Assembly: GCA_902635515.1 (NCBI GenBank)
Contig: CACPOD010000001.1
Coordinates: 101,307 to 165,306, forward strand
Length of the DNA: 64,000 nucleotides
Origin: an uncultured Pelagibacteraceae bacterium
GTDB taxonomy: Bacteria; Pseudomonadota; Alphaproteobacteria; Pelagibacterales; Pelagibacteraceae
Direction: 5' to 3'
Shown here one piece after another: positions 15,458 to 19,439 of this stretch; within the stretch, counting starts at the first letter, position 1; each line of letters opens with the position of its first letter. The notes beneath the pieces are model-generated. The model was not told the DNA's origin, ran no database searches, and was given only the letters and a program-made list of their open reading frames with translations. A program made the position numbers and the translations under genes.

Positions 15458-16177
15458 TTATTTTTTTATAATTTTTTTAAAGTTTTTAATTACTTTTGAA
15501 AGTCCATCAAATATTGACTCTCCGATTATAAAATGTCCAATATTATACTCCTCAATATCTATTATTTTTGTTAACATTTTGGTGGTTTTATAGTCTAAAC
15601 CATGACCAGCATGAACTTCTAAATTTAAACTTGATGCCAATTTTGCACTTTTTTTAATTCTGTTTAATTCACTAGAATAATTTTTTTTTGATTTAATTAG
15701 GTTTGCTAGTTTTCCGGTATGTATTTCAATACAATTAGCATTTAATTTTTTAGCAAGTCTAATATCATTTGGGGAAGGATTAATGAATAAACTTGTTCTT
15801 ATCTTTGCTTTTTTAAATTTTTTAATTATTTTCTCTAACTTATTAAGATTGTTTTTTATATTTAAACCTCCCTCGGTAGTAATTTCTTTTCTATTTTCTG
15901 GAACTAAACAGATAAAATTTGGTTTTATCTTAAGTGCTTTATTAACAATTTCTTCGTTCATAGAAATTTCAAGGTTTACAGGCACATTTCTTAAACCACA
16001 GATTTTTTTTGCATCAATATCATTTATATGTCTTCTATCTTCTCTTAAATGAATTGTTACAGAATCCGCTCCATAACTAATAACTTTTTTAGCTGCGTAT
16101 AGTGGGTCTGGATGTTTCTCTCCACGAGCGTTTCGTAAAGTTGCGATATGATCTATATTTACACCTAACCTTTTCAC
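15458..16177 (-). CDS. pdxJ: Pyridoxine 5'-phosphate synthase
   Basis: 'LGVNIDHIATLRNARGEKHPDPLYAA', 'VTIHLREDRRHI', 'VHAGHGLDY'. Confidence 0.97.
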   Translation of the reverse strand: MKRLGVNIDHIATLRNARGEKHPDPLYAAKKVISYGADSVTIHLREDRRHINDIDAKKICGLRNVPVNLEISMNEEIVNKALKIKPNFICLVPENRKEITTEGGLNIKNNLNKLEKIIKKFKKAKIRTSLFINPSPNDIRLAKKLNANCIEIHTGKLANLIKSKKNYSSELNRIKKSAKLASSLNLEVHAGHGLDYKTTKMLTKIIDIEEYNIGHFIIGESIFDGLSKVIKNFKKIIKK

Positions 16178-16761
16178 TTAATAAATCTGCTTCCTGGGGT
16201 TGTTATTGGTATAGATTTAAGTTCTGGTGGTAATTTATTTGTTTTAAAAGTTGGAACATCAATTTTTAAATGAGATGTTATTCCAGTTTTTATTTTTAAA
16301 GATTGTTTGGTTGATCGATCAATAATAGATGCAAATCCAATTAATTTTGCTTTTGATTTTTTAATCAATTTAACACACTCTAAACTTGATTTTCCTGTAG
16401 TGATTACATCTTCTATAATTAATACTCTTGCTCCTTTTTTAATATTGAATCCTCTTCTGAGAGTAAATTTACCATTTACTCTTTCACAAAAAATTGTTTC
16501 TTTTTTGAGCAATTTTCCAATTTCATATCCAATAATTACTCCTCCCATTGCAGGAGCTAGTATTAAATCTATTTTTTTAAATTTTTTTTTAATTTTATTT
16601 GCTAAAGATTTACAAATTTTATCAGCTAAATTAGGGAAACTTAAGAGTTTTGCACACTGAATATATTTTGAAGAATGTAGACCTGAGGATAGAACGAAGT
16701 GACCTTCTAATAATGCATTAGTTTTTTTTAAAATATTTAAGGATTTTTTGTGTGAAAGCAT
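16174..16761 (-). CDS. pyrE: Orotate phosphoribosyltransferase
   Basis: 'LLEGHFVLSSGLHSSKYIQCAKLL', PRPP loop 'VLIIEDVITTGKS'. Confidence 0.95.
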   Translation of the reverse strand: MLSHKKSLNILKKTNALLEGHFVLSSGLHSSKYIQCAKLLSFPNLADKICKSLANKIKKKFKKIDLILAPAMGGVIIGYEIGKLLKKETIFCERVNGKFTLRRGFNIKKGARVLIIEDVITTGKSSLECVKLIKKSKAKLIGFASIIDRSTKQSLKIKTGITSHLKIDVPTFKTNKLPPELKSIPITTPGSRFIK

Positions 16762-18463
16762 TTCTTTTTTCTTCGTGTCTAATTATCTTAAATTTTATAC
16801 TCTTTTGTTTTAGCTCTGCAATAAAATTAGTAAAATTCTTAAGGTTTCTAATAATTAATTTAAATTTAAAATTAATATAATTGGGATTTTTACCAACCAT
16901 TTCTAAGCTAGATATATTTAATTTGTGACTTCCAATGAGTGAGCTTATATCTCCTAATTGACCTGGCTTATCAGGTAATGACATCCATAGAGTGGTATTA
17001 TATTTTTTTGTTTTTTCCTCTTTTTGCTCTCCTTTATCATGCCAATATCTTCTTATTGCTGCTCTAGCTTTGCCTGTTTTAGTAGTTGGTATCCAGTGAA
17101 GTGATGGTGAATTATTTTTAGATGTTATTATATTTACTCGATCACCATTTCTTAAAATAGTTTGTAATTCGCTTTTGTTTCCATTAATTTCACAACCAAC
17201 TGCTGAATTACCAATTTTAGTATGAACAGCATATGCAAAATCTATAGCAGTTGCATCTTTAGGTAATTTTATAACTGAACCTTTTGGTGTAAAACAAAAT
17301 ACGTTTTCTTGAAACATTTGAAGTTTTGTATACTCATATGAATCTTCAGGGTTTTCATTTTTTTCTATAATCTCAACAAGATCTTTTAACCAATCATACT
17401 CCTTCCAACTTAAAGAATTAAATTTTTCAGAAGATTTATACTGCCAATGAGATGCGACACCTCTTTCTGCAAATTCGTGCATTTCATGTGTTCTAATTTG
17501 AATTTCTATTGGTTTTTTATTTGAACCAATTACAGAAGTATGAATAGATTTATAACCATTGATTTTTGGAGATGAAATATAATCTTTAAATTTCCCTGGT
17601 ATACAATTCCATTTTTTATGAAAAATCCCAAGAGTTTTGTAACAATCATCTACGTTTTTTAAAATTATCCTAAATCCAATAATGTCTGTTATTTGTTCAA
17701 GGGAGACTCTTTTTTTTTGGACCTTTCTCCAAATTGAAAAAGGTGTCTTTTCTCTACCATGTATTTCAGCATTAATTTCATTATCATTTAAAATTTCACT
17801 TAACTCAAAAGATTGTTCTTCGAACAAATCTTTTCTGTCCAATTTTATTTCATCAAGCCTTTTTTTTATTAATTTTCTTGCATCATTATTTAAAATTTCA
17901 AAAGATAAATCCTCAAGCTCGTCTCTTATTCTGTGCATTCCCATTCTATCAGCTAATGGTGCATAAATTTCCATAGTTTCTTGAGCTATTCTTTTTCTTT
18001 TATCCACTTTAGTAATCGCTTTAATGGTTCTCATGTTATGTAGTCGATCAGCAATTTTTACTAACAGAACTCTAATGTCTTTTGATGTTGCTAAAATTAA
18101 TTTTCTGAAATTCTCAACTTTAGAATTAGCTCCTGCTGAATTTTCAAACGCTGAAATTTTCGTTACACCGTCTACTAAATCAGCAACCTCATCACCAAAT
18201 TCTTGTTTGATAGTTTCATAAGTTGCAAAAGTATCTTCTATAGTGTCATGCAATAGACCAGTTGTAATTGTAGCGCTATCTAATTTTAATTCAGTTAAAA
18301 TATTTGCAACCTCAATTGGGTGAACAGAATAAGGATCACCCGAAGCTCTTTTTTGACTCTTATGTGCTTTAACAGCAAAATTATATGCTTTATCTAATTT
18401 TTCAGGATTAAGAAATTTATTATAATCCTTAACTTTATTTATAAGTTCATTTGAATTAAGCAT
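16718..18463 (-). CDS. RelA/SpoT family (p)ppGpp synthetase/hydrolase, short form
   Basis: HD hydrolase 'LLHDTIEDT', synthetase 'DIIGFRIIL', 'KINGYKSIHTSVIG', TGS 'VFCFTPKGSVIKLPKDATAIDFAYAVHTKIG', C-terminal ACT-like. Confidence 0.95.
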   Translation of the reverse strand: MLNSNELINKVKDYNKFLNPEKLDKAYNFAVKAHKSQKRASGDPYSVHPIEVANILTELKLDSATITTGLLHDTIEDTFATYETIKQEFGDEVADLVDGVTKISAFENSAGANSKVENFRKLILATSKDIRVLLVKIADRLHNMRTIKAITKVDKRKRIAQETMEIYAPLADRMGMHRIRDELEDLSFEILNNDARKLIKKRLDEIKLDRKDLFEEQSFELSEILNDNEINAEIHGREKTPFSIWRKVQKKRVSLEQITDIIGFRIILKNVDDCYKTLGIFHKKWNCIPGKFKDYISSPKINGYKSIHTSVIGSNKKPIEIQIRTHEMHEFAERGVASHWQYKSSEKFNSLSWKEYDWLKDLVEIIEKNENPEDSYEYTKLQMFQENVFCFTPKGSVIKLPKDATAIDFAYAVHTKIGNSAVGCEINGNKSELQTILRNGDRVNIITSKNNSPSLHWIPTTKTGKARAAIRRYWHDKGEQKEEKTKKYNTTLWMSLPDKPGQLGDISSLIGSHKLNISSLEMVGKNPNYINFKFKLIIRNLKNFTNFIAELKQKSIKFKIIRHEEKRNAFTQKILKYFKKN

Positions 18464-18484: not shown

Positions 18485-19003
18485 TCAAATTTGTTTAATA
18501 GATCTAATGTCTCTATCAGGAAGCAGAGAAATCAAGGTTTTAACATCAATTTGTTTGTCAGGATGAGTCCAATTCTTTTGAATCTCAAATAAGGGAAATA
18601 ATACAAAGTTTCTTTTGTGCATCATTTTATGAGGTAAATTAATCTTAGAATTTTTTCTTGATACCAAATTATTAAAATCGATTATATCTAAGTCACATGT
18701 ACGAGGTGCATTTTTTTTTGCTTTCTTTCTACCTAATTGATTTTCTATAGATTTACATATTTTTAATAGTTCTTGAGGGTTGTAATAACATTTTAATTTT
18801 ATAATTATATTTAAGAACTTAGGATTTCGTGGGTCCGGCCAGGAAGGGGTTTCATAATAACTAGATACCGAGAGAACATCTAAGTTATGTTCTGCTAATA
18901 AAAATTTTGCTTTTTCTATATTTCTTTTTCTTATACCTAAATTTGAACCTATTCCTAAAAAAACAATTTTAGCTTGATTTTCTAATATATCTTGCCTTTT
19001 CAC
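18485..19003 (-). CDS. folK: 2-amino-4-hydroxy-6-hydroxymethyldihydropteridine pyrophosphokinase
   Basis: '[19 protein letters not shown]', '[18 protein letters not shown]'; ORF track extends to 19063, GTG at 19003 is a plausible in-frame start. Confidence 0.88.
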
Positions 19004-19439
19004 GATTCCAATCTCTACTTTTTTTTGTTGCTCTTTTATCATATTGCTTTTTTCCTTTTGCAACAGCTAGTTCTATTTTAGCCTTTCCTTTTTTGAAATA
19101 CATTTTTGTTGGAACTAATGTGAAACCATCTCTTTGCATTTTACCTATCAATTTATTTATTTCTTTTTTATTAAGAAGCAATTTTCTATCATCGGTTGGA
19201 TTATGATTAGAGTAACTGGCTTGCTTATATGGAGATATATGTGAATTAATTAAAACAATTTCACCTCCCTTTTCAACAGCATAAGACTCAGCGATATTCA
19301 CCTTGCCCTCTCTTACTGATTTAATCTCTGATCCTTTTAAAACAATTCCAGCTTCAAAAAGATCTTCAAAAAAATAATTAAAACTAGCTTTTCTATTTAA
19401 ACAAATGATTTTCAAACCAGGATTGGTTTTTTTGTTCAT
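18969..19439 (-). CDS. smpB: SsrA-binding protein
   Basis: '[36 protein letters not shown]', '[15 protein letters not shown]'. Confidence 0.97.

Follow-up and report, generated by a model that had tools for sequence, protein, structure and literature searches.

The only Rsh found in Pelagibacteraceae (SAR11) lacks most of the helical domain and the whole ZFD/RIS region of long RSH enzymes

Results

The rsh locus and its product

In the window, by which we mean the whole analysed stretch of 64,000 nucleotides, rsh is encoded between folK and pyrE (Table 1), with an open reading frame that runs from ATG to TAA over 581 codons and has no internal stops. An earlier interpretation of the same DNA (the sequence-only reading), whose coordinates came without the minus strand on which rsh lies, had described a 581-aa protein with HD hydrolase, synthetase, TGS and ACT segments. 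This was confirmed with Pfam: HD_4, RelA_SpoT, TGS and ACT_4 each exceeded their own cutoff, and the TGS and ACT strings quoted at the time are present. In NCBIfam the protein reached 595.7 bits with TIGR00691 (cutoff 499.2), where the main match connects residues 26-487 with model positions 1-460 of 687 and a second stretch is matched besides. Among proteins of solved structure, Rel enzymes are the closest relatives, and the alignment with them runs only to about residue 490. PF19296 (RelA_AH_RIS), which represents the helical domain together with ZFD/CC, had no match in the protein in a Pfam search up to E ≤ 10, and a PF19296 search detected no AH-RIS encoded elsewhere in the same genome. 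Likewise, no second synthetase of the RelA_SpoT type (PF04607) was found in this genome (1.12 Mb; assembly 83% complete). The rsh product is predicted to be a bifunctional ppGpp synthetase/hydrolase without AH-RIS. An Rfam scan of the window for regulatory RNA near rsh returned one tRNA elsewhere and nothing else.

Table 1 Features of the rsh locus with their positions in the window
Feature	Residues	Position	Strand	Remarks
folK		18485..19063	minus	upstream neighbour of rsh; then smpB, dapA
rsh (spoT/relA homologue)		16718..18463	minus	581 aa; ORF and translation, Pfam/NCBIfam
HD_4 (ppGpp hydrolase), PF13328	26-176	17936..18388	minus	E 3.2e-47
SYN, RelA_SpoT (ppGpp synthetase), PF04607	236-346	17426..17758	minus	E 1.2e-41
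TGS, PF02824	389-447	17123..17299	minus	E 1.6e-16; H414 codon 17222-17224
First helix of helical domain, TGKARAAIRRYW	463-474	17042..17077	minus	conserved in Pelagibacteraceae as well as long relatives
Deletion junction, 17-residue linker	475-491	16991..17041	minus	alignment, spacing counts, PF19296 absence
ACT_4 (RRM), PF13291	485-553	16805..17011	minus	E 2.8e-08; N516 codon 16916-16918
Basic C-terminal tail	557-581	16721..16795	minus	helix predicted at the end; last part overlaps the pyrE start
pyrE		16174..16761	minus	start codon 44 nt inside rsh; then pdxJ, acpS, lepB, rnc

A protein of 100% identity occurs in named Pelagibacteraceae single-cell genomes, including that of 'Candidatus Pelagibacter ubique' SCGC AAA795-P11, and it is from such named records that the family of the query is taken to be Pelagibacteraceae (SAR11). 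Below, this family is compared with the second family of the same order, called the sister family. Six genera of Pelagibacteraceae were covered, the query's genus (g1) and five others (g5-g9), and conservation was counted over 131 distinct Rsh proteins of the family.

Extent of the missing segment

The segment that is missing starts just past TGKARAAIRRYW, the first helix of the helical domain. From the conserved W474 to the first ACT strand (L492) the 131 Pelagibacteraceae proteins have 16-18 residues, compared with 156-189 residues in 37 long Rsh of the sister family and other alphaproteobacteria. The earlier claim that the helical and CC/ZFD regions are missing agrees with the unmatched PF19296 and holds for all of CC/ZFD/RIS, which the sister family and other alphaproteobacteria keep; it has to be corrected for the helical domain, of which the first helix is retained. 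Its descent, its active sites and its curated score place the protein in the long RSH family, although the alignment shows that, of the six domains canonical for this family, one is missing completely and another for the most part.

Distribution among Alphaproteobacteria

Within the query's genus, Rsh open reading frames of about 581-603 aa are full-length matches to the query, and a few are incomplete, probably because they run into the end of a contig; the Rsh of g5-g9 have 567-590 aa. The sister-family proteins (708-714 aa) can be aligned with the query as far as about residue 483, and then again in the ACT domain at 21-26% identity. PF19296 was found in none of 37 Pelagibacteraceae genomes versus 21 of 24 genomes of the sister family, and the controls Caulobacter, E. 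coli and B. subtilis contained it. The Alphaproteobacteria were sampled evenly with 289 genomes, each at least 90% complete except for the window's own genome; of these, 275 had PF04607 and 271 had PF19296. Outside the Pelagibacteraceae, 270 of the 271 genomes with PF04607 also have PF19296, while this is true for none of the four Pelagibacteraceae genomes. The sequence-only reading had named a shared layout in ordinary alphaproteobacterial Rsh proteins as the finding that would speak against it, and these counts show the reverse. Several further small genomes (0.7-1.4 Mb) retain AH-RIS, so that genome reduction alone does not yield the short layout, which is common to every intact Pelagibacteraceae Rsh examined.

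Comparison of the two lists leaves, besides the four Pelagibacteraceae genomes, one alphaproteobacterium with PF04607 and without PF19296. This genome (G352) has a weak RelA_SpoT match (E 5.9e-10) and no AH-RIS, and perhaps encodes a small alarmone synthetase as its sole RSH. Two irregular records were also noted. At G346:C9:150700-151869 an open frame of 25104 aa is reported around an ordinary Rsh, which is probably due to masked or N-filled sequence or to a counting artefact. At locus L172 (G404) a 487-aa open reading frame keeps a C-terminal part with AH-RIS and ACT and has no HD half, representing a split gene, a frameshift or a real truncation.

Origin of the short layout

The gene order dapA-smpB-folK-rsh-pyrE-pdxJ is identical in Pelagibacteraceae and in the sister family with its long Rsh. 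In a tree of the shared Rsh part the Pelagibacteraceae proteins form one clade (SH-aLRT 99) that is sister to the second family. Tree and synteny are most simply explained by one in-frame deletion that would have taken place in situ in the ancestor of the Pelagibacteraceae. An artefact or frameshift was rejected, because the identical layout is present in many separate assemblies and PF19296 is found nowhere in the Pelagibacteraceae genomes. Horizontal replacement by a SpoT of the Pasteurellaceae type is not favoured in view of the synteny and of the sister position of the two families, in a tree that was calculated without gammaproteobacterial SpoT.

At its 3′ end rsh overlaps pyrE by 44 nt in different frames (window positions 16718-16761, minus strand), and the pyrE ATG lies exactly at −41 from the rsh stop in g1, g8 and g9, the genera tested. 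Synonymous sites have diverged by about 0.09 in the rsh tail, compared with more than 1.1 in the remaining gene. Because of this low synonymous divergence, the basic C-terminal helix of Rsh appears to be dual-coding with the N-terminus of PyrE. In g5-g7 the rsh tails are shorter and the overlaps with pyrE are different or absent.

Conservation of the catalytic domains

All residues inspected in the two active sites, H48, H72, D73, E76, D77, D139 and N143 of HD and R237, K239, S243, K247, D260, K293, D294, Y304, E320, Q322 and R324 of SYN, are invariant in 131 of 131 proteins. The RxKD motif reads KFKD in the query, its first Arg being replaced by Lys in 113 and kept in 18 of the 131 proteins. 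Between congeners dN/dS amounts to 0.032 for HD, 0.033 for SYN, 0.042 for TGS and 0.032 for ACT, values which are rough since dS exceeds 1. Invariant active sites and a dN/dS of about 0.03 indicate that rsh is not decaying and that the catalytic domains, TGS and ACT are under strong selection. A decaying gene, or an error of assembly or annotation, could be suspected where a domain is lost in a reduced genome; with the same layout in many separate assemblies from six genera, the low dN/dS and the invariant active sites, we regard this explanation as refuted for practical purposes.

The RxKD motif also varies in the long Rsh of the sister family (loci L152-L159), where its first Arg is replaced by Ser, Thr or Phe in 8 of 8 proteins; Arg is present in 27 of 29 other alphaproteobacterial proteins. 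Altered synthesis is a possible consequence of this change in the sister family.

The TGS and ACT modules

In TGS, H414 corresponds to H420 of B. subtilis and H432 of E. coli RelA and is invariant in 131 of 131 proteins. The same holds for N516 in ACT. Position 295 of chain x in PDB 6htq, the Asn of 'TNISS', is B. subtilis N685 and aligns to N516, the numbering offset of 390 having been checked by C602/C603. B. subtilis N685 is in turn the equivalent of N651 in Rhodobacter capsulatus Rel, which is tied to the binding of branched-chain amino acids (PMC7058999). The idea of a lost site for branched-chain amino acids, for which the Asn of the NEPG loop had been taken for R. capsulatus N651, was dropped, since the N685 mapping in 6htq places N651 at the conserved N516. 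The NEPG-loop Asn itself is invariant in the 37 other Rsh and is Asp (119) or His (12) in the Pelagibacteraceae proteins, D498 in the query. The NEPG-type loop of ACT domains also contacts the ligand, as in E. coli SerA. Because the changed residue lies in a ligand-contacting loop, the ligand specificity of the Pelagibacteraceae ACT domain may differ.

The full-length AlphaFold model, for which 29 near-identical sequences served as input, was of low quality (pLDDT 50, pTM 0.34) and was used solely for the order of secondary structure. From a fragment model of residues 377-581 only the ACT part, with pLDDT 78-89, was trusted. Its fold has its best PDB matches in the ACT domain of a Chlorobium tepidum GTP pyrophosphokinase (2ko1 and 3ibw; TM by target 0.66-0.74, with 0.74 for 3ibw). 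A sequence search with the ACT region alone against the PDB gave nothing meaningful.

From TGS to the end, the net charge of Rsh is +20.6 in g1 versus +4.1 in the sister family. An extra basic tail is present in three of the six Pelagibacteraceae genera; in g5-g7 the tail is short and the ACT core near-neutral. A marked basic shift is also seen in PdxJ, PyrE and AcpS of Pelagibacteraceae (loci L140-L151) when they are compared with their counterparts in the sister family or elsewhere among alphaproteobacteria. For PdxJ the charge per 100 aa is +9.1 in Pelagibacteraceae compared with −3.3, which suggests that the basic shift of proteins is partly lineage-wide.

Candidate partners of Rsh

In Caulobacter, phosphorylated EIIA-Ntr inhibits hydrolysis by SpoT (PMC4848567). 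The PTS EIIA domain (PF00359) was found in none of 17 Pelagibacteraceae genomes, with a positive Caulobacter control, and in the sister-family genomes none scored above the cutoff. Since the sister family is also without EIIA above cutoff, the loss of EIIA is probably older than the rsh deletion. RNA polymerase omega is present in 24 of 24 genomes of the family, so that a suspected loss of rpoZ beside rsh was rejected, and a DksA-type zinc-finger protein is present in 22 of 25. With both proteins present, ppGpp may still act on RNA polymerase at its known targets. The suggestion of the sequence-only reading that this Rsh keeps other inputs therefore finds support in the ACT Asn linked to branched-chain amino acids (N516) and fails for EIIA-Ntr.

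Discussion

The domains lost and kept in the SAR11 Rsh have been studied in related enzymes. On the ribosome, the 23S A-site finger is the docking site of the ZFD, and the CCA end of tRNA is read by TGS (PMC7058999); off the ribosome, TGS and the helical domain stimulate hydrolysis by HD, and ZFD and RRM block SYN (PMC9848473). B. subtilis Rel without RRM and ZFD still hydrolyses (PMC7058999). Without ZFD/RIS, classical recruitment to starved ribosomes would be absent in SAR11, and with the helical domain and ZFD gone, two of the four C-terminal contacts of the compact hydrolysis-on/synthesis-off state would be missing, which would make for a looser lock. The main determinants of the balance between synthesis and hydrolysis would then be nucleotide allostery within the catalytic half and the short TGS-ACT module, in which ACT with its conserved N516 is the likely input for an amino acid or metabolite. 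The outcome would be a steady basal level of ppGpp tuned by metabolite pools, with no on/off stringent response to stalled ribosomes. We propose, with a probability of roughly 60%, that the SAR11 protein is such a bifunctional Rsh, largely uncoupled from the ribosome and controlled by nucleotide allostery and TGS/ACT after a single deletion in the ancestor of the Pelagibacteraceae. According to a review, growth-rate control of ribosome synthesis is absent from SAR11, and about 0.1% of its protein genes appear transcriptionally controlled (PMC11102524). Both statements fit our proposal and are no proof of it. In the papers searched, no biochemical data on a SAR11 Rsh were found.

Some observations argue against the uncoupling. 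If tRNA were no longer read, one would not expect the TGS His to be invariant, though TGS may bind other partners. The B. subtilis ZFD mutant C602A C603A keeps partial activity and grows without amino acids (PMC7058999), by analogy with which an intact ZFD would not be absolutely required. The loss of ribosome and uncharged-tRNA sensing, as suggested by the sequence-only reading, is plausible in so far as the lost ZFD/RIS argues for lost or weakened recruitment; loss of tRNA sensing cannot be declared with H414 invariant and the ZFD mutant partly active. Also the input by amino acids is not assured, as the NEPG Asn is changed in all 131 ACT domains and the N685A mutation left growth of B. subtilis on LB undisturbed (PMC7058999).

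The main rival is an Rsh that still senses starved ribosomes or deacylated tRNA, where H414 would read the CCA end and a basic post-TGS helix, ACT/RRM and the tail would replace the rRNA grip of the ZFD. Such a substitution would agree with the invariance of H414 and of several residues of the post-TGS helix, with the high net charge from TGS to the end in g1 and with the partly functional point mutant of B. subtilis. We consider it unlikely, since the domain responsible for contact with the A-site finger is missing, and a basic grip in particular is weakened by the partly lineage-wide basic shift, as seen with PdxJ, and by the short tail and near-neutral ACT core of g5-g7. Somewhat less probable still is a housekeeping, SpoT-like set-point enzyme without specific sensing, in which the opposing activities balance each other and ACT and TGS are structural. 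The little transcriptional regulation reported for SAR11 (PMC11102524), the same deletion in two Pasteurellaceae SpoT (PMC3153485) and the absence of EIIA-Ntr from the family would suit this explanation; the purifying selection on ACT and TGS, about equal to that on the catalytic domains, does not, and the fully conserved SYN motifs speak against a pure hydrolase.

Beyond the largely uncoupled Rsh proposed above, we speculate that the SAR11 stringent response was rebuilt as a ribosome-independent, metabolite-gated ppGpp thermostat, in which the sole Rsh reads amino-acid or other metabolite pools directly via TGS-ACT with a specificity altered by the exchange of the NEPG Asn for Asp or His. We hold this idea tentatively, at odds below even. 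If true, it would help to explain how SAR11 does without growth-rate control of ribosome synthesis.

Like long RSH/Rel enzymes (TIGR00691; Caulobacter SpoT, B. subtilis Rel), the SAR11 Rsh has the domain order HD, SYN, TGS, ACT and keeps the catalytic residues, the TGS His and the ACT Asn, and it is the sole RSH synthetase found. It differs from them in that ZFD/RIS is completely and the helical domain largely missing, in the change of the NEPG Asn to Asp or His, in the extra basic tail of three genera and in a genome without EIIA-Ntr, the regulator of Caulobacter SpoT. The SpoT of Acinetobacter baumannii (PDB 7qpr) is a sequence relative of the HD-SYN-TGS...ACT type that is regulated off the ribosome; at 701 aa, however, it still contains the middle region, and it acts as a hydrolase only (PMC13376610), whereas the SYN motifs of the SAR11 Rsh are intact. 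With the R. capsulatus Rel regulated by branched-chain amino acids, the SAR11 protein shares the equivalent of N651, and a similar ligand effect is conceivable.

The layout itself is not without precedent in the literature. An internal deletion that takes away the helical domain and CC and leaves ACT was described as a rare exception for SpoT of Haemophilus ducreyi and Actinobacillus pleuropneumoniae (Atkinson et al. 2011, PMC3153485). These are gammaproteobacterial proteins of two named species, whereas in SAR11 the deletion extends to the whole family and concerns the only RSH found. We infer that the two deletions are independent, because the Pelagibacteraceae proteins group with the long Rsh of the sister family, in a tree without gammaproteobacterial SpoT. 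The Pasteurellaceae lineage in question also has RelA. RshC and RshA, mentioned next, are extra RSHs of their hosts and not the sole one. RshC of Bacilli and RshA of Salinispora keep HD-SYN-TGS and are without CC, RshC also without most of the helical domain, as in the SAR11 Rsh; both also lack ACT, which the SAR11 protein keeps (PMC3153485). The word Pelagibacter does not occur in the main text of PMC3153485, and nothing on the architecture of any SAR11 Rsh was found in open-access papers, the subscription literature being outside our reach. The fixation of this layout throughout an ecologically dominant family, and in its sole RSH, thus appears to be undescribed in the papers that could be searched.

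SAR11 bacteria are among the most abundant cell types of the ocean, and their ribosomes and most of their genes are reportedly expressed near-constitutively. That the sole ppGpp synthetase found in them is without the part that reads stalled ribosomes, a state shared by essentially no other sampled alphaproteobacterium, suggests that SAR11 probably senses nutrients for the ppGpp signal by a different route. The existence of a stringent response in a streamlined oligotroph becomes a directly testable question, and a natural deletion under strong selection offers a means to ask what the helical domain and ZFD do in the regulation of long RSH. One Pelagibacteraceae genome (G190, genus g7) carries a second HD protein that resembles a small alarmone hydrolase: this extra protein of 154 aa (locus L160) matches PF13328 with 25.2 bits, just below the cutoff.
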